Below, in pieces: positions 3,726 to 14,461 of a stretch of 14,461 bases of DNA. The stretch is from Deltaproteobacteria bacterium RIFOXYA12_FULL_61_11 (lineage in GTDB: Bacteria > Bdellovibrionota_F > JAHFAK01 > YA12-FULL-61-11): contig MGSU01000074.1 in NCBI GenBank assembly GCA_001799195.1, forward strand, positions 1-14,461, written 5' to 3'. Position 1 is the first letter of the stretch; each line of letters opens with the position of its first letter. Under the pieces are notes generated by a model. That model worked only from the letters and a program-made list of their open reading frames with translations, had not been told where the DNA came from and did not search any database. A program made the translations under genes and the position numbers.

Positions 3726-4628
3726 ATGAACGACAAGAAACCCGAGCCTGCGCTGCTACCTCCGACTACCCGGCAGCGCCATTTCCAAGACCTTTCCAAC
3801 CTGCTCGATGCCCTGCTGCCCCCCTGTTGCTTGGTCTGTTCCGGGCAACTCGAACCAGCAGTCGGGGGCCTCTGCTCTACATGTCGCGAAAACTGTATCC
3901 AACTGAGCGGGCCGAGCTGCTGTCGATGCGGACGGCTCTTGCCCGAAGGGGCAGGCAAGCATCATCACTGTGGTTCCTGCCGTCTCAAGCCACCTCCCCA
4001 GCACGGCCTGCGTTCAGGCTACGACTATCGCAGCGTGGCCCCCCTGCTCGCCAGGGTCAAACGGCGAGCCGAGACCGCCTTGCTCGTTCCATTGCTGGAC
4101 CACCTCAGGAGTTTGAAGGAATACTTCCCCGAGATCGACGCCATTGTCCCCGTCCCTTCGCACCGGCTCGAGCTGGCTCGACGTGGGCACGAACCGACCC
4201 TCACCTTGGGTGTCCTGCTCGCCGGCCGCCTCGCTAAACCCTTACTACCGGGCATCTTGCGCAAACAACGCAGCACTCGTCCTCAGCACGAACTCGGCCG
4301 AGGGGAACGCGCACAGAATCTCCACGATGCCTTCGTCGTTCCGAAGTCCCTCCCGCTCTCGGCCCGACTGCTCTGTCGATGGTGCGCCTTGCGCACGGGA
4401 CTCTCCCCCTCCCCTCTGCTTCTACGCATGGCCGCCAACCTCGAGAAGAAGCGCACCATCTTCAATGGTTTCAAATTATTATTGGTCGACGACGTGGTCA
4501 CCACCGGAGCCACCATCGCCGCGTGTTCCCGCGCGCTCTTGCGAGGAGGGGCTACCTCGATCGAGGTCTTCACCTTGGCCAAGACCCTTTCCCGGGAAGA
4601 ATGCGAAGTTCGAAAAAGTGATGGCTAG
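3726..4628 (+). CDS. comF: ComF family phosphoribosyltransferase-like protein
   Basis: This is a 300-residue ComF/GntX-family protein. Members are needed for natural transformation in several bacteria, where they act in the cytoplasm on incoming single-stranded DNA with other ComF proteins. An N-terminal zinc-binding region has cysteine pairs at 34/35 and 38, 50 and 53, 65/66 and 68, and 82 and 85. The phosphoribosyltransferase fold follows, with VPVPSHR at 141-147, the QRSTRPQ...N signature at 181-199 and the PRPP-type loop VDDVVTTGAT at 254-263. Between NLHDAF (199-203) and LLLVDD (251-256) there are about 47 residues, where the family usually has some 15-20, so there is an insertion rich in Leu, Arg and Ser. 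The start has GGGGA about 8 nt upstream. It is the first gene of the series ending at pilT. Confidence 0.9.
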   Translation: MNDKKPEPALLPPTTRQRHFQDLSNLLDALLPPCCLVCSGQLEPAVGGLCSTCRENCIQLSGPSCCRCGRLLPEGAGKHHHCGSCRLKPPPQHGLRSGYDYRSVAPLLARVKRRAETALLVPLLDHLRSLKEYFPEIDAIVPVPSHRLELARRGHEPTLTLGVLLAGRLAKPLLPGILRKQRSTRPQHELGRGERAQNLHDAFVVPKSLPLSARLLCRWCALRTGLSPSPLLLRMAANLEKKRTIFNGFKLLLVDDVVTTGATIAACSRALLRGGATSIEVFTLAKTLSREECEVRKSDG

Positions 4629-4675
4629 GGGGCTCTGTTTGGACTATACAGGAATGACCTCGGAGGAACCCAGCG

Positions 4676-4861
4676 ATGGACGAGACCCCGGAGAAACGCA
4701 ACTATCTCGGCATCTTGTTCGAGTGTTGCAATGTCTACGCTCGCATCCACCGGACCAAGGACGGCACGGCTTACGAAGGCCGTTGCCCGCGTTGTCTTCG
4801 TCCGATCAGGGTCGCCATAGGCGAAGGCGGGACCTCCCAGCGCATCTTCAAGGCGAGATGA
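4676..4861 (+). CDS. Small zinc-binding (CC/CPRC) conserved protein
   Basis: This 61-residue protein has adjacent cysteines C17-C18 and a later CPRC (C37, C40), the pattern of a single zinc ribbon. It also has a short GTAYEG turn and a C-terminal GGTSQRIFKA segment. Small proteins of this layout, with a CPR(C)-R-P/V core and a GGTS(S)RFF-like end, occur as conserved hypotheticals in several Gram-negative phyla; I recall no assigned function. The start is supported by GGAGG 9 nt upstream. The stop overlaps the start of the next gene (ATGA), indicating translational coupling. Although short, the motif, ribosome binding site and overlap make it a real gene. Confidence 0.8.
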   Translation: MDETPEKRNYLGILFECCNVYARIHRTKDGTAYEGRCPRCLRPIRVAIGEGGTSQRIFKAR

Positions 4862-5193
4862 CCATGCTACGGATACTGCTGATCCTCTTCTTAGCTTACG
4901 TGCTCTGGAAAGTGCTGGCTCCCCAGGTCCTTCCCTTCCTCCGGCGCGGACCTCGCCAGAGGTCGGAGATCTTACCGGACGACGACCCCTACGCGGTGCT
5001 CGGAGTACCACGATCGGCCTCTCTCGAGGAGATCACCAGGGCCTTCCACGACCTCGCCGCCAAATACCACCCCGATAAAGTCGCCCATCTCGGCGAAGAC
5101 CTGCAACACCTTGCGAACGAGCGCTTCCTCGCCATCGAGCGCGCCTATTCCACGATCAAACGCAACCACCCACAGTCAGGAGAACAGCGATGA
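4858..5193 (+). CDS. Membrane-anchored J-domain (DnaJ-like) protein
   Basis: This 111-residue protein has a hydrophobic N-terminal helix at residues 4-20 and a complete J domain at about 43-103. The J domain contains [11 protein letters not shown], the [12 protein letters not shown] helix with the HPD triad at 71-73, and a closing [11 protein letters not shown] helix. J domains stimulate the ATPase of DnaK/Hsp70. The N-terminal helix would put this one on the cytoplasmic face of the inner membrane, as in DjlA-like proteins, but there is no TerB-like region. The start ATG overlaps the stop of the upstream small gene; a second ATG two codons later (4864) is also possible. Its own stop overlaps the recA start in the same ATGA arrangement. 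Confidence 0.88.
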
Positions 5194-6260
5194 AAGCCCC
5201 TGCCGCTCACCCGGACAAAGATCGCCTCAAAGCGGTCGACCTGACCATTGCCTCCATCGAGCGCCAGTACGGCAAAGGCTCGATCATGAAACTCGGCTCC
5301 AGAGAAGCCTTGCTCAAGGATCTCCAGGTCATCCCCACTGGCAGCATCAGCCTAGATCTCGCCCTCGGCATCGGAGGCATCGCCCGCGGCAGGATCATCG
5401 AGATCTTCGGACCGGAGAGCTCGGGAAAGACCACCCTGGCCCTGCACCTGTGCGCCGAAGCGCAAAAACTCGGCGGCACCGTCGCCTTCATCGACGCGGA
5501 GCACGCCCTCGACGTGACCTACGCCCGCAAGATCGGGGTCCACACCGAGGATATTCTGATCTCTCAACCGGATTACGGAGAACAAGCCCTTGAGATCGCC
5601 GACATGCTGGTCAAGAGTGGCGCCGTCGACCTGATCATCATCGACTCCGTGGCAGCCCTCACTCCCAGGGCGGAATTGGACGGCGAGATGGGCGACACCC
5701 ACGTCGGCCTGCAAGCTCGGTTGATGAGCCAGGCCTTACGCAAACTCACGGCCACGATCAATAAATCCAACACGGTCCTGGCTTTCATCAACCAGATCCG
5801 CATGAAGATCGGAGTCATGTTCGGCAACCCGGAGACCACCACCGGCGGCAATGCCCTCAAGTTCTACAGCTCGGTGCGACTGGACATCCGTCGCCTCGCG
5901 AACATCAAGAACGGTGAAGAAATCGTCGGCAACCGGGTTTCGGTCAAGGTCGTAAAGAACAAGCTGGCCCCACCGTTCCGCAAGGCCGAGTTCGACATCA
6001 TGTACGATCAAGGCATCTCCCGCGAGGGGGACCTGCTCGACCTCGCCGTAGTCAACAACATCGTCCAGAAGAGCGGCTCCTGGTACAGCTACGGACAAGA
6101 CCGCATCGGCCAAGGCCGCGAGAGCGTGAAGGTATTCCTGCGCGAGAACCCGGAACTCTTCGAGCGGATCAAGACCGACCTCTGTGCCTCGAAAACCCCG
6201 GCCCGCCTTACCCCGGAGAGCAACCTCCCCGAAGAAGGCACACCGGACCCGAGCGAGTGA
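5190..6260 (+). CDS. recA: Recombinase RecA
   Basis: This is a full-length RecA of 356 residues, the strand-exchange protein of homologous recombination and co-protease for LexA in the SOS response. Visible signatures are the Walker A loop GPESSGKT at 74-81, Walker B LIIID at 147-151, the L1 region around AELDGEMGD 161-169, and the L2 DNA-binding loop from NQIR at 201 to GG at 220 with ETTTGG. The acidic C-terminal tail is short. AGGAG lies about 7 nt before the start. The start codon overlaps the stop of the J-domain gene, so recA has no room for its own promoter immediately upstream; transcription must begin inside or before the preceding genes. pilT follows 25 bp after the stop. Confidence 0.99.
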
Positions 6261-6285
6261 CGCTGCCCCCCCCACGGAGAGGAGC

Positions 6286-7446
6286 ATGGACCTCACGACC
6301 ATTCTGACCGCAGCGGTGCGTACGGGCGCCTCGGATATCCACCTGCGGGTCAACGAACCCCCGGTGTTCCGCGTGAACGGACTCCTGCTCAGGACCAAAC
6401 AACCCAAGCTGACCAACGAACAGATCAAGGGGTTCGCCTCCTCGTTCCTGACCGAGGACGACTGGCAAAAATTCCGGATCAACAACCAACTCGACCTTGC
6501 CCATACCATTCCCGACGTCGGGCGTTTCCGCGTCAACATCTTCATGCAGCAACGGGTCCTCGGCATCGTCTTCCGCATCATCCCCTTCAGGGTCAAGACC
6601 CTCGACGAACTCTCCCTGCCCGAGGTGCTCAAGGACATTGCCATGACGCCTCGGGGGCTGGTCCTGGTCACCGGAGCCACGGGCAGCGGTAAATCCACCA
6701 CGCTGGCGGCGATGATCGAGCACCTCAACCAAAATAAACCCCATCACGTGATCACGGTCGAGGACCCGATCGAGTACCTTTTCAAGGACAATCGCTGTGT
6801 CATCAACCAACGCGAGATCGGTCAGGACGCCCCCTCGTTCAATGAGGCTTTCAGGGCCGCTCTGCGTCAGGACCCGGACATTATCCTGGTCGGCGAAATG
6901 CGCGACCTCGAGACCATCGACATCGCCCTCAAGGCGGCCGAGACCGGTCACCTGGTGCTCTCGACTCTGCACACGACCAATGCCGTGGAAACGGCCAACC
7001 GCATCATCGCTGTCTTTCCCAACGAGCAACAGCGTCTGGTGCGACACCGTCTCGCCATGGTCCTCAAATCGATCATCTCGCAGCGCCTGGTGCGCACAGC
7101 CGACGGCAAGGGCCGCCTCGCCGCCAACGAGATCCTGATCAACACCCGACGGGTGATGGAGATCCTGGACGAGGGTGAAGACCTCGCGGGTCTGGCCGAC
7201 GTGATCACCGAAGGGTACGATCCTTACCGGATGCAGACCTTCGATCAACACCTCATGTACCACCTGAAACTGGGCAGGATCAGCTACGACGAGGCCATGG
7301 CCAACTCCACCAATGCCCAGGACTTCAAGCTCCGCTTCCAGGGTATCCACACCGGCGGCAGCGGTGGCGGTTGGGTGGCCTTCGATCAGGCGATCGAAGC
7401 TGAACTGGAGAAGCTCAAGAACGCACCCGCACCTTCCGGCTCCTGA
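6286..7446 (+). CDS. pilT: Type IV pilus retraction ATPase, PilT/PilU family
   Basis: This 386-residue cytoplasmic hexameric ATPase would power retraction of type IV pili in twitching and DNA uptake. An N-terminal PAS-like region with GASDIHLRVNEPP at 14-26 is followed by Walker A TGATGSGKS at 129-137, the Asp box EDPIEYLF at 159-166, Walker B ILVGEMRD at 200-207 and the His box TGHLVLSTLHT at 220-230. The C-terminal part has MQTFDQHL at 316-323, shared by PilT and PilU. The AIRNLIRE-type retraction motif of classical PilT is not obvious; VMEILDEGE stands in its place, so it may be PilU-like. The ATG at 6286 has GGAGAGGAG close upstream; an open extension to 6184 lies inside recA and is rejected. 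Residues after about 355 are Gly-rich then helical. Confidence 0.93.
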   Translation: MDLTTILTAAVRTGASDIHLRVNEPPVFRVNGLLLRTKQPKLTNEQIKGFASSFLTEDDWQKFRINNQLDLAHTIPDVGRFRVNIFMQQRVLGIVFRIIPFRVKTLDELSLPEVLKDIAMTPRGLVLVTGATGSGKSTTLAAMIEHLNQNKPHHVITVEDPIEYLFKDNRCVINQREIGQDAPSFNEAFRAALRQDPDIILVGEMRDLETIDIALKAAETGHLVLSTLHTTNAVETANRIIAVFPNEQQRLVRHRLAMVLKSIISQRLVRTADGKGRLAANEILINTRRVMEILDEGEDLAGLADVITEGYDPYRMQTFDQHLMYHLKLGRISYDEAMANSTNAQDFKLRFQGIHTGGSGGGWVAFDQAIEAELEKLKNAPAPSGS

Positions 7447-7548: not shown

Positions 7549-8997
7549 ATGGCCGAGATCCTGAAGCACTACATCAACGGAACGTGGGTCGCTTCCCACG
7601 GGACAACCCTGCTCGAGGTGGACAACCCGGCGACGACCGAGGTCCTGGCCAAAGTCCCGCTCGGCGACCGGAAGGACGTGGAAGCGGCGGTCGGCGCGGC
7701 CCAGGAAGCCTTCCGCGACTGGCGCGAGACCCCTCCCCTCGATCGAGCCCAATACTTCTTCAAACTCAAGACGTTGCTCGAGGAGCACTTCGAAGACCTC
7801 AGCCGCATGGTCACCGTGGAGCACGGCAAGACCCTGCACGAGGCTCGCGGGGACGTACGCCGCGGCATCCAGAACGTCGAGGTCGCGGCCGGCATCCCCA
7901 CCCTGCTGATGGGCGAGACCTGCGAGGACGTGTCCCGGGGGGTGGATTCCACCTCCATGCGCAGAGCCCTGGGCGTCTTCGCGGCCATTACCCCCTTCAA
8001 CTTCCCGGCCATGGTCCCACTGTGGTTCTGGCCCTTCGCCGTGGCCTGCGGCAACACCTATGTGGTCAAACCCTCGGAACAAGTGCCGTTGACGCAACAA
8101 CTCCTCTTCCAACTCACCGAACGGGTCGGCTTCCCCAAGGGCGTGCTCAACCTCGTCCACGGGGCCAAGGAAGTGGTCGACGCGCTGTGCGACCACCCCG
8201 ACGTCAAGGGCGTCTCCTTCGTCGGCTCCACGCCCGTGGCCGAACATATCTACCGCCGCTGCGCCGCGGCCGGGAAGAGGGTCCAGGCCCTCGGCGGGGC
8301 CAAGAACTCCATGATCGTTATGGACGACGCGGTCAAGGACAAGACCGTGGCCAACATCCTCGATTCGTCCATGGGTTGCGCCGGACAACGCTGTCTCGCC
8401 GCCTCGGTCGTCCTGTGCGTCGGCGACCATGCCTACGACTGGTTCTCGGCCGGCTTTGTCGAGCAGGCCCGCAAGGTGAAGACCGGCAACGGCCTCGACG
8501 AGAACGTGAACCTCGGCCCGGTCATCTCCCGGGCGGCCAAGGACCGCATCTTGACCGATATCGGGACCGCGCTCGAGCAGGGCGCGACCATGCTCCTCGA
8601 CGGCCGTAACACCGCCGACCTGGGACCCGGCTACTTCCTCCGGCCGACCGTCCTCGCCACCCAAGATCGCGAAAACATCTTGATAACGAAAGAACTGTTC
8701 GGCCCCGTGGTCGCGCTCCTGAAGGTTTCCAGCCTGCAAGAAGGCATCGACCTGATCAACGCCTGTCCCTTCGCCAACACCACCTCGATCTTCACCTCCA
8801 GCGGCCGCGCCGCCCGCCAGTTCCAGTACGAGGTCCACCCGAGTATGATCGGGGTCAACATCGGGGTCCCGGCGCCGATGTCCTTCTTCAGCTTCGGAGG
8901 TACCCGCAAATCCCTCTACGGCGACCTCAAGGCCCACGGCAAGGAGAGCATCGCCTTCTTCACCGACACCAAGGTCAGCATTATCCGCTGGTTCTGA
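7549..8997 (+). CDS. mmsA: CoA-acylating methylmalonate/malonate-semialdehyde dehydrogenase
   Basis: This 482-residue NAD-dependent aldehyde dehydrogenase of the MMSDH type oxidises malonate semialdehyde to acetyl-CoA, or methylmalonate semialdehyde to propionyl-CoA, with loss of CO2. Diagnostic features are TPFNFPAMVPLWFWP at 148-162, with the conserved Asn N151, and the MMSDH-type LGGAKN at 248-253 in place of the ELGGK general-base motif of hydrolytic ALDHs. GQRC at 279-282 places the catalytic cysteine at C282; the residue at 277 is also Cys, where MMSDHs commonly have Ala. The ATG at 7549 follows GAGGGGG and the usual YINGTW start of the family; an earlier in-frame TTG at 7480 is rejected. 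It would take the aminotransferase product and close the pathway. A role in valine or inositol catabolism alone is less likely given the neighbours. Confidence 0.92.
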   Translation: MAEILKHYINGTWVASHGTTLLEVDNPATTEVLAKVPLGDRKDVEAAVGAAQEAFRDWRETPPLDRAQYFFKLKTLLEEHFEDLSRMVTVEHGKTLHEARGDVRRGIQNVEVAAGIPTLLMGETCEDVSRGVDSTSMRRALGVFAAITPFNFPAMVPLWFWPFAVACGNTYVVKPSEQVPLTQQLLFQLTERVGFPKGVLNLVHGAKEVVDALCDHPDVKGVSFVGSTPVAEHIYRRCAAAGKRVQALGGAKNSMIVMDDAVKDKTVANILDSSMGCAGQRCLAASVVLCVGDHAYDWFSAGFVEQARKVKTGNGLDENVNLGPVISRAAKDRILTDIGTALEQGATMLLDGRNTADLGPGYFLRPTVLATQDRENILITKELFGPVVALLKVSSLQEGIDLINACPFANTTSIFTSSGRAARQFQYEVHPSMIGVNIGVPAPMSFFSFGGTRKSLYGDLKAHGKESIAFFTDTKVSIIRWF

Positions 8998-8999
8998 CC

Positions 9000-9012
9000 C
9001 GAGGAGGTACTC
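9000..9012 (+). promoter_or_regulatory. Ribosome binding site of hydA, copy 1 of a repeated leader
   Basis: CGAGGAGGTACTC contains a near-perfect Shine-Dalgarno and sits just before the dihydropyrimidinase ATG. The identical 13-mer precedes the preA start at 14081-14093. It defines both starts. Confidence 0.7.
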
Positions 9013-9013
9013 C

Positions 9014-10402
9014 ATGAGCATCCTGATCACCGGCGGCGACATCGTCACCGCCGCGGACCGTTACCAGGCTGACCTCCTGATCGAGAACGGGAAGATCACC
9101 CGCATCGGTTTGGACCTCAGCTCCATCTTCGTCGCAGAACGGGTCATCGACGCAACCGGGCTCCTGGTCCTGCCCGGGGCCATCGATCCACACACCCACC
9201 TGGACATGCCGTTCATGGGTACCCGGTCGGCGGACGACTTCGAGAGCGGCACCCTGGCCGCCCTCCACGGGGGCACCACCACGGTCATCGATTTCGCCAT
9301 CCAGAGCAAGGGGCACGGCCTGAACGAGGCTCTGGACACCTGGTCCGGCTTTGCCGAGGGCCGCGCGGTGGGCGACTATGCCTTCCACCTGGCCGTCACC
9401 GACTTCAATGACCAAGTCTCCGCCGAGCTACCCGGCATCATCACACGTCGCGGCGTCACCTCCTTCAAGGCTTTCATGGCCTACAAGGGCTCCCTGATGA
9501 TCGACGACCGGCAACTGCTCCTGCTCCTCGAGCAGTGCGGCCGGCACGGAGGCTTGCTCTCGGTGCACGCCACCAACGGCGATATGATCGACCAGCGCGT
9601 CGCCGCTTTCCGGGCCCAGGGAAAAACCTCCCCCCTCTACCACTGGCTGGCCCAGTGCGAACTGACCGAGGAAGAAGCCACCGGGCGTTTCCTCGACCTG
9701 GCCCATCTCTGCGGTACCCCGGTCTACATCGTCCACCTGACCTGCGAGGGCGCGCTCAATAAAGTCCGCAACGCGACCAAGCGCAACCAGCAGGTCTTCG
9801 TCGAAACCTGCCCGCAATACCTGCTGCTCGACGCGTCGCTGTATGAGCGCGGCTTCGAAGCCGCGAAGTGGGTGATGAGTCCGCCGCTACGCCTCGCGAA
9901 AGACCGCGAGACCCTGTGGGCAGGGCTGCGGCAAGGCTTGGTGCAGACGGTCGGCACCGACCACTGTCCCTTCACCCTGGCCCAGAAAGAGACCGGACGG
10001 AACGACTTCAGCAAGATCCCCAACGGCATGCCCGGTATCGAACACCGCCTCGAGTTGCTCCACTCCGAAGGGGTGGTGAAAGGCCGCATCGGCCTCCAGA
10101 AGCTCGTCGAAGTCAGCTCGACCAACGCGGCCAGGATCTTCGGCCTTTTCCCTCAGAAAGGCACCATCGCGGTCGGCAGTGACGCGGATCTCGTCCTATT
10201 CGACCCGCGCGAGGAACACGAAATCTCTGCCGCGACTCATCACCACCGCTGTGACTACTCGGCCTTCGAAGGCTACCGCGCGACCGGTCGCGTCAAGACC
10301 GTGCTGCTCCGCGGCACGGTGGCCATCGAGAACGGCACGGCAAAGATCGGCAAGGGCTTCGGTCGCTACCTTGCCAGAAACCAGTTCAATCCCAATCGCT
10401 GA
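9014..10402 (+). CDS. hydA: Dihydropyrimidinase (D-hydantoinase family)
   Basis: This 462-residue cytoplasmic amidohydrolase opens the ring of 5,6-dihydrouracil or dihydrothymine to give N-carbamoyl-beta-amino acids. All binuclear zinc-site residues of the family are visible: H60 and H62 in DPHTHLDMPF, the lysine that is carboxylated (K152 in SFKAFMAYKG), H185 in HATNGD, H241 in HLT, and catalytic D316 in GTDHCPF. Y157, next to the bridging lysine segment, matches the substrate-binding Tyr. Length is typical. Start supported by GAGGAGG. It lies 16 bp after mmsA and 12 bp before the ureidopropionase gene, so it is cotranscribed with them. Hydantoinase or allantoinase activity cannot be excluded, but the neighbours favour dihydropyrimidines. 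Confidence 0.95.
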   Translation: MSILITGGDIVTAADRYQADLLIENGKITRIGLDLSSIFVAERVIDATGLLVLPGAIDPHTHLDMPFMGTRSADDFESGTLAALHGGTTTVIDFAIQSKGHGLNEALDTWSGFAEGRAVGDYAFHLAVTDFNDQVSAELPGIITRRGVTSFKAFMAYKGSLMIDDRQLLLLLEQCGRHGGLLSVHATNGDMIDQRVAAFRAQGKTSPLYHWLAQCELTEEEATGRFLDLAHLCGTPVYIVHLTCEGALNKVRNATKRNQQVFVETCPQYLLLDASLYERGFEAAKWVMSPPLRLAKDRETLWAGLRQGLVQTVGTDHCPFTLAQKETGRNDFSKIPNGMPGIEHRLELLHSEGVVKGRIGLQKLVEVSSTNAARIFGLFPQKGTIAVGSDADLVLFDPREEHEISAATHHHRCDYSAFEGYRATGRVKTVLLRGTVAIENGTAKIGKGFGRYLARNQFNPNR

Positions 10403-10414
10403 ACAGGAGGCACT

Positions 10415-11281
10415 ATGACCAGGACCGTCACCGCGGGTCTCATCCAGCTCGCGAACCAACTCCCCACCGAGTCGAGCTGCGCCGAGCACCGCGAAGCCAT
10501 GATCGAGGCCCATATTCCCTTCCTCGAGCAGGCAGCTTCCAAAGGGGTGCAGGTGCTGTGCCTGGAAGAAGTCTGCACCGGACCCTATTTCTGTCCGTCC
10601 CAGGATAAAAAATGGTACGGCCTGGCCGAGGCCATCCCCGAGGGTCCCACGACCCAGCGCTTCATGGCCCTGGCCAAGAAGTACGGTATGGTCATCGTCC
10701 TCCCCATCTACGAGGAGGAAATGCCGGGGGTCTACTACAACACCGCGGCGGTGATCGACGCCGACGGCACCTACCTGGGCAAGTATCGTAAACACCACAT
10801 CCCGCAAGTCGCCGGCTTCTGGGAAAAGTTCTTCTTCAAACCCGGCAACCTCGGCTTCCCGGTCTTCGAGACGGCCTTCGCTAAAATCGGGGTCTACATC
10901 TGCTACGATCGCCACTTCCCCGAGGGCGCCAGGGCCCTCGGCCTGAACGGGGCGGAACTGGTCTTCAACCCCTCGGCCACCGTGGCCGGGCTGTCCCAAT
11001 ACCTTTGGCAACTCGAACAACCCGCTCACGCCGTGGCCAACGGGTATTTCGTCGGTGCGATCAACCGAGTCGGCTGCGAACTGCCCTGGAACATCGGCGA
11101 ATTCTATGGTTCTTCCTACTTCGTGGACCCACGCGGCCAGATCGTGGCCCAGGGCTCCAAGGACAAGGATGATCTGGTCACCGCGGTGTTGGACCTCGAC
11201 TCCATCCGCGAGATCCGCAACTTGTGGCAATTTTACCGGGACCGCCGACCCGAGGCTTACGAGGACCTGGTCCTCCTCTGA
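10415..11281 (+). CDS. pydC: Beta-ureidopropionase (N-carbamoyl-beta-alanine amidohydrolase)
   Basis: This 288-residue nitrilase-superfamily enzyme hydrolyses N-carbamoyl-beta-alanine to beta-alanine, CO2 and NH3. The catalytic triad is visible: Glu in LEEVCTGPYFC (probably E52), K126 in KYRKHHIPQ and C163 in YICYDRHFPE. The GPYFC and KYRK-x-HIP segments are close to those of beta-ureidopropionases and N-carbamoylputrescine amidases; the neighbouring dihydropyrimidinase favours the former. Start is preceded by AGGAGG about 5 nt away. The next gene begins 65 bp after the stop, the longest gap in the cluster after the mmsA leader, and that gap holds a hairpin. Confidence 0.92.
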   Translation: MTRTVTAGLIQLANQLPTESSCAEHREAMIEAHIPFLEQAASKGVQVLCLEEVCTGPYFCPSQDKKWYGLAEAIPEGPTTQRFMALAKKYGMVIVLPIYEEEMPGVYYNTAAVIDADGTYLGKYRKHHIPQVAGFWEKFFFKPGNLGFPVFETAFAKIGVYICYDRHFPEGARALGLNGAELVFNPSATVAGLSQYLWQLEQPAHAVANGYFVGAINRVGCELPWNIGEFYGSSYFVDPRGQIVAQGSKDKDDLVTAVLDLDSIREIRNLWQFYRDRRPEAYEDLVLL

Positions 11282-11287
11282 CCTCAT

Positions 11288-11326
11288 GGCAGCCGGCTTC
11301 GTGCCGCTGCCGGGTTTCCGGTTTTT
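11288..11326 (+). terminator. Intercistronic hairpin with trailing T-run, possible attenuator
   Basis: GGCAGCCGGC (11288-11297) can pair with GCCGCTGCC (11303-11311) around the loop TTCGT, giving nine base pairs with one bulged C. A run of five T (11322-11326) follows about 10 nt later, too far for a classical strong terminator. It lies between the ureidopropionase and aminotransferase genes, so partial termination or mRNA stabilisation is plausible. Confidence 0.35.
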
Positions 11327-11346
11327 ACAACGAGGAGATGGACGAC

Positions 11347-12696
11347 ATGACCCACAACCTCAAGGACAATGCCGACGACATCGTAGCCCTGTGCAAACGC
11401 TACACCCTCTTTTCCTGGGCAGCCCAGGGCAAGGTCAACCCCATCCCGGTCACCCGAGCCAAGGGCGTGTACTTCTGGGACGCCGCCGGCAAGCGTTACC
11501 TCGACTTCAGCTCGCAACTCATGAACGTCAACATCGGCCACGGCGATCCCCGCGTGCTCGAAGCGATCACGGCCCAAGCCGCCGAGCTGACCTACGCCTA
11601 CCCGGGCATGGCCACCAGGCCGCGCGGCGAACTCGGCCGCAAGTTGTCCGAGCTCACGCCCGGCGGTCCGAAGAGGACCTTCTTCACCCTCGGCGGAGCC
11701 GAGGCTATCGAGAACGCGATGAAAATCGCGCGACTCTACACCGGTCGGCAGAAAATCGTCACGCGGTACCGTTCCTTCCACGGGGGGACCTTTGCCGCGG
11801 CCTCGGCCGGCGGCGATCCTCGCAGACTGGCCAACGAACCCGGGGTGCCCTGGATCGTCCGCACCCTCGACCCCTATGCCTACCGCAGCCCGATCTACCG
11901 CCACTGCACTCCCGAAGAAGGGGACATGGTGCTCATCGACCTGCTCGCCGAACAGCTCGAGATGGAGGGTCCGGGCAACGTGGCCGCGGTCCTGCTGGAA
12001 GGCTACAGCGGCTCGAGTGGCATCATGGCCCCCAGCACCCCGCTGTATTGGCAGCGCCTGCGCGAGCTGTGCACCGCCCACGGCATCCTGCTCATCGTGG
12101 ACGAGGTCATGAGCGGTTTCGGCCGCACGGGTAAATGGTTCGCCATTGAGCACTACGGCGTGCAGCCGGACCTCATGGTCCTCGCGAAGGGGTTGACCTC
12201 GGGCTACCTGCCCCTCGGCGCGGTCGTGGTCAACGAGAACATCGCCGCCCACTTCGATCAACACGAACTGGTCGCCGGCTTGACCTATGGGGCACATACG
12301 CTCGCCTGTGCCACAGCCCTGGCCTGCATCTCGGTGTACGAACAGGATCACCTCGTCGAACGCGCTGCACACCTGGGCAAGAAACTCGAGGTCAAGCTGC
12401 AGAGGCTCCAGGAGCACCACCCGTCCCTCGGCGACATCCGCGGTACCGGGCTCTTCTACGTCCTGGAAGTGGTCAAGGACCGGGCCACGCGCGAACCCAT
12501 GTCCGCCTGGAACAAACCCCTAACCCCGCCCATGGCCGCGATCGCCGCTTACCTGCGCGAGCACGGGGTCTCGACCTTCGTGCGCTGGAACTTGATCTTC
12601 GTGGTCCCACCGTTGATCATCGAAGAACAGGAACTCGACGAAGGGTTGAGCGTCATCGACCAGGCCCTCGCGATCAGCGACAGGGCAATGGCCTGA
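11347..12696 (+). CDS. Class III PLP aminotransferase, probably beta-alanine:pyruvate type
   Basis: This 449-residue class III (omega) aminotransferase probably converts beta-alanine, or beta-aminoisobutyrate from thymine, to the corresponding semialdehyde. The PLP lysine is K281 in VLAKGLTSGYLPLG, the pyridine-binding Asp is D252 in LIVDEVMSGFGRTGKW, and FTLGGAEAIENAMKIAR (113-129) binds the cofactor phosphate. The GLTSGYLPLGA and GLTYGAHTLACA segments are close to taurine:pyruvate aminotransferases, so taurine or another omega-amine is an alternative. Its place between the ureidopropionase and MmsA functions favours beta-alanine. The ATG at 11347 is chosen because GAGGAG lies 9 nt upstream; the ATG at 11338 directly abuts that site and cannot use it. 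Confidence 0.9.
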   Translation: MTHNLKDNADDIVALCKRYTLFSWAAQGKVNPIPVTRAKGVYFWDAAGKRYLDFSSQLMNVNIGHGDPRVLEAITAQAAELTYAYPGMATRPRGELGRKLSELTPGGPKRTFFTLGGAEAIENAMKIARLYTGRQKIVTRYRSFHGGTFAAASAGGDPRRLANEPGVPWIVRTLDPYAYRSPIYRHCTPEEGDMVLIDLLAEQLEMEGPGNVAAVLLEGYSGSSGIMAPSTPLYWQRLRELCTAHGILLIVDEVMSGFGRTGKWFAIEHYGVQPDLMVLAKGLTSGYLPLGAVVVNENIAAHFDQHELVAGLTYGAHTLACATALACISVYEQDHLVERAAHLGKKLEVKLQRLQEHHPSLGDIRGTGLFYVLEVVKDRATREPMSAWNKPLTPPMAAIAAYLREHGVSTFVRWNLIFVVPPLIIEEQELDEGLSVIDQALAISDRAMA

Positions 12697-12730
12697 GCCC
12701 TTCCTACCCCCCTTCAGCGGAGGTTTTCCC

Positions 12731-14053
12731 ATGACCTTGGAACCCACGACCTGCCGCGAGCCCTGGGACCTCGGCCGCATCACTGCCGAAGCCGCCAGGT
12801 GTCTCCTGTGCCACGACGCTCCCTGTTCCAGGGACTGCCCGGCCGGGACCGATCCCGGCCGTTTCATCCGCAAGGTGCGCTTGCGCAATCTCAAGGGCGC
12901 CATCCGCACCATCAGGACCAACAACGTGTTCGGCGGCACCTGCGGTCTGCTCTGCCCGACCGAGAAGCTGTGCGAGAAGGCCTGCTCCGCGGCAGCCTTG
13001 GATCGGCCGATCCGCATCGGCGAACTCCAACACGGACTTGTCGAACTCGGGTACCGGCTCGGTTACAACCCACTTCGGCCGGTGCCCCTTCGGGGACCGA
13101 GGGTTGCGATCCTCGGCTCCGGTCCCGCGGGTCTGGCCTGCGCCGCCGAACTGGCGAGGCACGGGCTCCGGGTCACGGTCTTCGAGCGCGAGGGAGAGCC
13201 CGGCGGAGTCGTGCGGCACCTGCTGCCCGACCAACGAGTCCGCAGCACCATCGTCGAACGGGAGATCGAGGACATCCTCGGCCTGGGCGTCGAAGTACGC
13301 ACCGGCCTGGCCATCACCGGTGCGAACGCCGCGAAGAACCTCCTCGACGAAGGCTATGCCGCCGTTTTCGTCGCCACGGGCACGACCCACAGCAAGAGTC
13401 TGGGACTGGCTCCGGCGGCTACGCCGAACTTGCTCCTCGCCCTCCCCTTCCTCCGGGCGTGCAAGGGAAAACCCGACCCTGCCGTTCTCGGGCTGGTGCA
13501 GGGCAAGACCGTGACCGTCATCGGCGGCGGCGACGTGGCCATGGACGTTGCCGCTTCGGCCCTGCAACTCGGCGCCTCCACGGTCTCGGTCTTGTACCGC
13601 CGCTCCTTCAACGAAATGCCGGGGGACAGGGGGCAAAAACTCGCGACCCAGGAACTCGGCGTCCACTTCCTGTTCCTGGTCACCCCGCTCGCCTATGAGC
13701 TGCAGCAGGGCAGCATCGTATCCGTGCGGCTGGTCCGGAACGAACTTGGTTCGCCGGACCCGGACGGGCGACGCAGACCCTCACCCCTCCCCGGCAGCGA
13801 ACACCTCGTACCGACCGACCTGGTGATAGAGGCCATCGGTGAAGAGGTCGCCCCGGACAATATTCTGCTCAACGATCATCTCGGCGCCAATGCCGGGCAC
13901 CTTGTCCGCACCGACCCGGCCGGCAGGGCGACGAATATCGACCGAGTCTATGCCGGAGGCGACACTGTCCGGGGTCCTGCCCTGGTCGTCCAGGCCGTGG
14001 CCGACGGTAAAGCCGCCGCGCACGGCATCCTCGAACGTTTGCAGCGGAGCTGA
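12731..14053 (+). CDS. preT: NAD-dependent dihydropyrimidine dehydrogenase, subunit PreT
   Basis: This 440-residue flavin and iron-sulfur subunit takes electrons from NADH and passes them to PreA for reduction of uracil or thymine. The N-terminus has two cysteine sets for [4Fe-4S] clusters: C24, C27, C32, C36 and C71, C75, C81, C85. An FAD Rossmann motif ILGSGPAGLA follows at 127-136 with EREGEPGGV at 152-160, then an NAD(P) motif VIGGGDVAMDVA at 263-274. The closing YAGGDTVRGPALVVQAVADG is typical of the GltB-beta-like family. GltD or NADH-dependent sulfide/ferredoxin reductases share this architecture, but the adjacent PreA settles the call. Start is preceded by GGAGG. It sits 34 bp after the aminotransferase gene. 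Confidence 0.93.
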   Translation: MTLEPTTCREPWDLGRITAEAARCLLCHDAPCSRDCPAGTDPGRFIRKVRLRNLKGAIRTIRTNNVFGGTCGLLCPTEKLCEKACSAAALDRPIRIGELQHGLVELGYRLGYNPLRPVPLRGPRVAILGSGPAGLACAAELARHGLRVTVFEREGEPGGVVRHLLPDQRVRSTIVEREIEDILGLGVEVRTGLAITGANAAKNLLDEGYAAVFVATGTTHSKSLGLAPAATPNLLLALPFLRACKGKPDPAVLGLVQGKTVTVIGGGDVAMDVAASALQLGASTVSVLYRRSFNEMPGDRGQKLATQELGVHFLFLVTPLAYELQQGSIVSVRLVRNELGSPDPDGRRRPSPLPGSEHLVPTDLVIEAIGEEVAPDNILLNDHLGANAGHLVRTDPAGRATNIDRVYAGGDTVRGPALVVQAVADGKAAAHGILERLQRS

Positions 14054-14080
14054 TCGTATTCTCTGGAACTCTCACCTCTC

Positions 14081-14093
14081 CGAGGAGGTACTC
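14081..14093 (+). promoter_or_regulatory. Ribosome binding site of preA, copy 2 of a repeated leader
   Basis: CGAGGAGGTACTC is identical to the 13-mer before the dihydropyrimidinase gene (9000-9012). It lies 2 nt before the preA ATG and sets that start. Confidence 0.7.
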
Positions 14094-14095
14094 GC

Positions 14096-14461
14096 ATGTT
14101 CGACCCCACCTTCGACCTGAGCGTGGATTTCTGCGGCAAGCGGATGGTCAATCCGTTCATGCTTTCGTCCTCACCGGTCTCCAACAGCGCCGAGATGATC
14201 CACCGGGCCTTCGAGGCCGGTTGGGGGGGCGTGGCCTACAAGACGATCAGCTCCCCCACCGAGCTCGTCGTCCATCCCTCGCCGCGCATGTGTACCTACG
14301 ACTACCAGGGCCGGAAGCTGATCGGCCTGCAGAACGTCGAACAGACCTCAGACCGTCCCATCGCGGACAACCTCGCGGACCTCGCCGCCCTGAAGCGTGC
14401 GTGGCCGGACCGCCTGGTCATCGGCAGCATCATGGGTTTTTCCACCGAGGAATGGCGGGAG
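14096..14461 (+). CDS. preA: NAD-dependent dihydropyrimidine dehydrogenase, subunit PreA (5' part)
   Basis: Only the first 122 codons are in the window; the gene runs off the right edge. The product begins with the FMN-binding barrel of dihydroorotate-dehydrogenase-like enzymes: LSVDFCGKRMVNPFMLSSSP at 8-27, AGWGGVAYKTIS at 41-52 with K49 at the expected flavin-contacting position, and GLQNVEQTSD at 77-86. These closely match PreA and the C-terminal half of eukaryotic dihydropyrimidine dehydrogenase. With PreT it reduces uracil or thymine to the dihydro form. The C-terminal ferredoxin-like clusters expected for the family lie outside the window. It starts 42 bp after preT, behind GAGGAGG. Confidence 0.93.
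   Translation, partial: MFDPTFDLSVDFCGKRMVNPFMLSSSPVSNSAEMIHRAFEAGWGGVAYKTISSPTELVVHPSPRMCTYDYQGRKLIGLQNVEQTSDRPIADNLADLAALKRAWPDRLVIGSIMGFSTEEWRE

Follow-up and report, generated by a model that had tools for sequence, protein, structure and literature searches.

The window, that is, the whole stretch of DNA analysed here, is the entire contig C74 (14,461 bp) of a 4.64-Mb genome that comprises 342 contigs and is 87% complete. Five genes follow one another on its forward strand: comF, two small genes that encode a zinc-ribbon protein (61 aa) and a membrane J protein (111 aa), recA, and pilT (Table 1). An earlier note on this DNA had described these genes as a same-strand row with two ATGA overlaps and 25 bp between recA and pilT, and the coordinates proved exact; comF and the zinc-ribbon gene are separated by 47 bp. 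A simple scan detected no sigma-70-like promoter on the forward strand and no more terminators than expected by chance, an outcome that is compatible with one operon but proves nothing. Since the GC content at the third codon position of the zinc-ribbon gene (0.75) and of the J-protein gene (0.74) is similar to that of their neighbours, the zinc-ribbon homologues share eight invariant residues, and the J domain carries an HPD motif, both small open reading frames look like genuine genes.

Table 1. Features of the comF–pilT row, with positions in the window.
Feature	Position	Strand	Basis
comF/GntX-like gene, 300 aa	3726-4628	+	ORF and domain searches
Zinc-ribbon gene, 61 aa, unnamed conserved family	4676-4861	+	ORF and homologues
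Membrane-anchored J-domain gene, 111 aa	4858-5193	+	ORF and Pfam DnaJ
recA, 356 aa	5190-6260	+	ORF and TIGR02012
pilT-family ATPase gene, 386 aa	6286-7446	+	ORF and TIGR01420
ATGA stop/start overlap, zinc-ribbon gene to J-protein gene	4858-4861	+	
ATGA stop/start overlap, J-protein gene to recA	5190-5193	+	

The remainder of the window is occupied by genes of other kinds. Positions 1-1900 of the reverse strand encode part of an HsdR-like R subunit of a type I restriction enzyme, with the motifs ATGTGKT and VDECHRG, which is truncated by the contig start; a 392-aa forward-strand open reading frame over this fragment is antisense. A tRNA-Arg gene (CCT anticodon) lies at 2257-2328 on the reverse strand. 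Beyond pilT, the forward strand from 7549 to 14461 harbours a reductive pyrimidine-degradation set with an MMSDH-type aldehyde dehydrogenase, a dihydropyrimidinase, a carbon-nitrogen hydrolase, a class III aminotransferase, and a PreT-like oxidoreductase, ending in the start of a PreA-like gene that is cut by the contig end.

RecA scores 547 bits against TIGR02012 (cut-off 325) and is the single RecA match in the genome, while the pilT product reaches 445 bits against TIGR01420 (cut-off 319). For comparison, 92 recA neighbourhoods from 90 other genomes were queried with the window proteins and with cinA, pgpA, recX, alaS, and comF from other loci. A pilT gene was found directly 3′ of recA, on the same strand and at similar spacing, in 18 of the 91 loci with enough downstream sequence, and these 18 loci belong to 18 different families. 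The adjacency of recA and pilT is conserved across unrelated families, far above chance. Upstream of recA, a same-strand cinA lies no more than 5.5 kb away at 39 of 81 loci; downstream, alaS is present at 31 of 82. The commonest order around the pair is (pgpA–cinA–)recA–pilT–(recX–)alaS. The window resembles such loci in that pilT follows recA on the same strand at similar spacing, but cinA, pgpA, and alaS do not adjoin its recA. No CinA match was obtained in the window's genome, where 87% completeness leaves absence unproven; CinA is present in G001, the phylum relative. G004 and G061 (L160 and L164) show the recA–pilT linkage in another form, with a same-strand pilT-like gene placed upstream of recA, at a distance of about 3.4 and 5.9 kb, respectively. 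The five-gene order as a whole is absent from all 92 other recA loci and is, in this sample, unique to the present genome.

A recA–pilT pairing is already known from Geobacter sulfurreducens, to which the 18 families seen here are added. At the locus of this species (GSU0146), pilT1 is located between recA and recX, recA and pilT1 are co-transcribed, and PilT1 has been proposed by the authors to be a DNA-uptake ATPase (PMC5065972). The window likewise encodes a PilT paralogue beside recA. Unlike the Geobacter locus, however, it features comF, the zinc-ribbon gene, and the J-protein gene before recA, and whereas recX lies beyond pilT1 in Geobacter, neither recX nor alaS follows pilT in the window. 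In a maximum-likelihood tree of PilT proteins, from which several T2SSE-family matches of G000 and G001 were left out as too distant from PilT, the recA-linked PilTs group together, with 2 label changes where shuffles average 9.1. The PilT of the window is placed in their midst, although the fork that joins them is weakly supported (84/87) and two unlinked proteins lie inside.

The comF product combines an N-terminal double zinc ribbon (Pfam DZR_2, 31.6 bits, cut-off 27) with a C-terminal phosphoribosyltransferase domain (Pribosyltran, 27.3 bits, cut-off 26.3) that bears the LLVDDVVTTGATI motif. It thereby resembles Helicobacter pylori ComFC, a protein with zinc-finger and phosphoribosyltransferase domains that binds single-stranded DNA and helps to transport and handle the DNA that is taken up (PMC9005727). 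In contrast to ComFC, the window protein is known from its sequence, and its best NCBIfam models, GntX and ComF, both score below their curated cut-offs. The phylum comparison consists of one other genome, G001 (same class, another family), which limits every statement on close relatives; there, comF also lies upstream, in the order comF–cinA–recA. At the other sampled recA loci, comF was found neither by tblastn nor with a two-sequence profile, searches in which the cross-phylum queries are divergent and may miss distant copies.

The zinc-ribbon protein belongs to a family with homologues in 15 of the 385 other genomes searched. Eight residues are invariant (C17, C18, Y21, G35, C37, P38, C40, and G52) and include a CC and a CPxC motif. 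No Pfam or NCBIfam model matched above its cut-off. Identity with RNHCP (Pfam PF12647) was considered and rejected, the model giving 16.5 bits against a cut-off of 24 and matching one of 16 family members. A single-sequence AlphaFold model shows four strands at a mean pLDDT of 75; Foldseek returned no match to it under E 0.001, a profile search of the PDB gave nothing significant, and a search of plasmids yielded no matches. None of the 15 homologues has recA, comF, or a J-protein gene beside it. Their neighbours, whose names were assigned by eye from sequence without a family search, include macro-domain genes (L204, L205, and L210), nucleoside-degradation genes (L201), and ATP-synthase genes (L206). 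A macro-domain-like gene directly adjoins three of the 15 homologues (L204, L205, and L210), and the macro-domain neighbours make a tie of the family to ADP-ribose chemistry possible. In G140 (L208:6177-8502), the zinc-family gene lies one open reading frame downstream of pilT on the same strand, and in L200 recA is found about 7 kb from the homologue in opposite orientation. The phylum relative G001 does not carry the zinc-ribbon gene.

The J protein consists of an N-terminal hydrophobic helix followed by a C-terminal J domain with an HPD motif, which starts at residue 43 of 111; Pfam DnaJ (1.9e-13, 50.7 bits) is the sole family matched. Hydrophobicity peaks at 2.19 over residues 3-21, and a single-sequence AlphaFold model places a helix at residues 3-29. 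An HPD-bearing J domain together with a predicted transmembrane helix characterizes the protein as a membrane-anchored J protein; it is a likely DnaK co-chaperone. Its best relatives are J domains that form the C terminus either of TerB–DnaJ-like proteins, one of which is the best sequence match, or of small membrane J proteins. With DjlA and TerB–DnaJ proteins it shares a membrane anchor and the same type of J domain (YHPDKV-HLGE motif); in DjlA, however, TerB is located between the membrane segment and the J domain, whereas the window protein has no TerB and measures only 111 aa. The closest short J genes of the same architecture, in G095 and G233 (same genus), both adjoin a CoA-transferase gene, and no small membrane J gene occurs at any of the 92 other recA loci. 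Two candidates were discarded: the J match that precedes recA by 2.4 kb in G105 belongs to an ordinary full-length DnaJ, with another gene in between, and the one locus returned when genome contigs were scanned with the J protein (L087) encodes a transposase-like protein that has a short FLAYVLWK stretch in common with it.

Taken together, the locus is probably a local variant of an old recA–pilT neighbourhood that carries two passenger genes. RecA would serve as a general recombinase, and the adjoining PilT, probably one of the recA-linked paralogues, would most likely be co-expressed with it and may power a DNA-uptake pilus as its ATPase, the kind of role suggested for PilT1 of Geobacter. 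Within the phylum, comF would have joined upstream of recA; its product would act at the membrane, binding single strands as they enter and helping to pass them to DprA/RecA, in the manner of Helicobacter ComFC. The usual place of cinA (and pgpA) upstream is taken by the zinc-ribbon and J-protein genes, and that of alaS downstream by the unrelated pyrimidine-degradation set. The two small genes would most likely travel as passengers on a shared transcript, the membrane-tethered J protein stimulating DnaK at the membrane and the zinc-ribbon protein acting in a general process of some kind by binding nucleic acid or protein. Several points speak against this reading. With their two 4-bp overlaps, the small genes are coupled closely to recA, an uncommon state for a recent chance insertion, and the sole phylum relative is without the zinc-ribbon protein, which limits the view of the linkage in closer relatives. 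The weak support of the PilT fork and the divergence of the comF queries likewise count against it. Gene identities, their order, the recurrence of recA–pilT, and the scattering of the small genes in other bacteria are observed here, whereas co-transcription, the biochemical roles, and DNA uptake by this bacterium are inferred.

Other explanations have been weighed against the passenger reading. The row might constitute a general DNA-repair or stress operon in which RecA repairs, the J protein recruits DnaK, the zinc-ribbon protein is a helper, and PilT and ComF are unrelated to uptake. This would fit the housekeeping character of the usual recA neighbours (cinA, pgpA, recX, and alaS) as well as the likely co-chaperone function of the J protein. 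However, neither of two tested SOS-type box patterns is present in the window, and the Geobacter authors tie recA–pilT1 to DNA uptake (PMC5065972); we regard such an operon as unlikely.

The earlier note had extended a role in transformation to the entire row and had put forward the two small proteins as candidate DNA-uptake or RecA-loading factors. ComEC and DprA, together with several secretion/pilus ATPases, are encoded in both phylum genomes. Because the ComEC and DprA families match in most control genomes too, their presence is weak evidence for transformation; as judged from its gene content, natural transformation of the present bacterium by ComEC, DprA, and pilus ATPases is plausible. 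The view of recA and pilT as functional neighbours holds in light of the 18 loci and of the co-transcription and proposed uptake role in Geobacter (PMC5065972), whereas the full series does not recur; the link between comF and recA, in turn, recurs in the one phylum relative but nowhere else in the sample. Within this sample, which includes one other genome of the phylum, the extension to the small genes fails by the standard that the note had set for its refutation, since the complete order is unique and these genes lie elsewhere in other bacteria, the zinc homologues in 15 unrelated neighbourhoods and the closest J genes next to a CoA-transferase gene. A DNA-uptake role for the small proteins, drawn as it is from the present genome only, is unsupported. 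A dedicated five-gene transformation operon, with both proteins acting in DNA uptake or RecA loading, would account for the ATGA overlaps, the partly conserved recA–pilT and comF–recA linkages, and a genome equipped with ComEC, DprA, and pilus ATPases. Nevertheless, it appears very improbable given that neither small gene is near recA at the 92 other loci, that recA, comF, and J genes are missing beside all zinc homologues, and that the phylum relative displays comF–cinA–recA without a zinc-ribbon gene. Slightly more doubtful still is the notion that, in this deep-branching phylum, the two proteins have become working parts of a ComF–RecA–PilT DNA-uptake pathway in the place of cinA, for example by recruiting DnaK to the membrane for the transfer of incoming strands to RecA. 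A chance juxtaposition of genes with several separate promoters and no common function would agree with the absence of the full order from the other recA loci and with the continuation of functionally unrelated pyrimidine-degradation genes on the same strand, but is scarcely credible in view of recA–pilT in 18 families, the two 4-bp overlaps, and the lack of a forward-strand promoter-like site inside the row.

The passenger reading separates a real conserved link, that of recA with pilT, from an accidental-looking one, that of the two small genes. The zinc-ribbon family, which is spread across many lineages and unannotated in Pfam and NCBIfam, is therefore worth naming. Given that the recA–pilT pair recurs across unrelated families, the recA-linked PilT lends itself well to tests of a driving role in DNA uptake.
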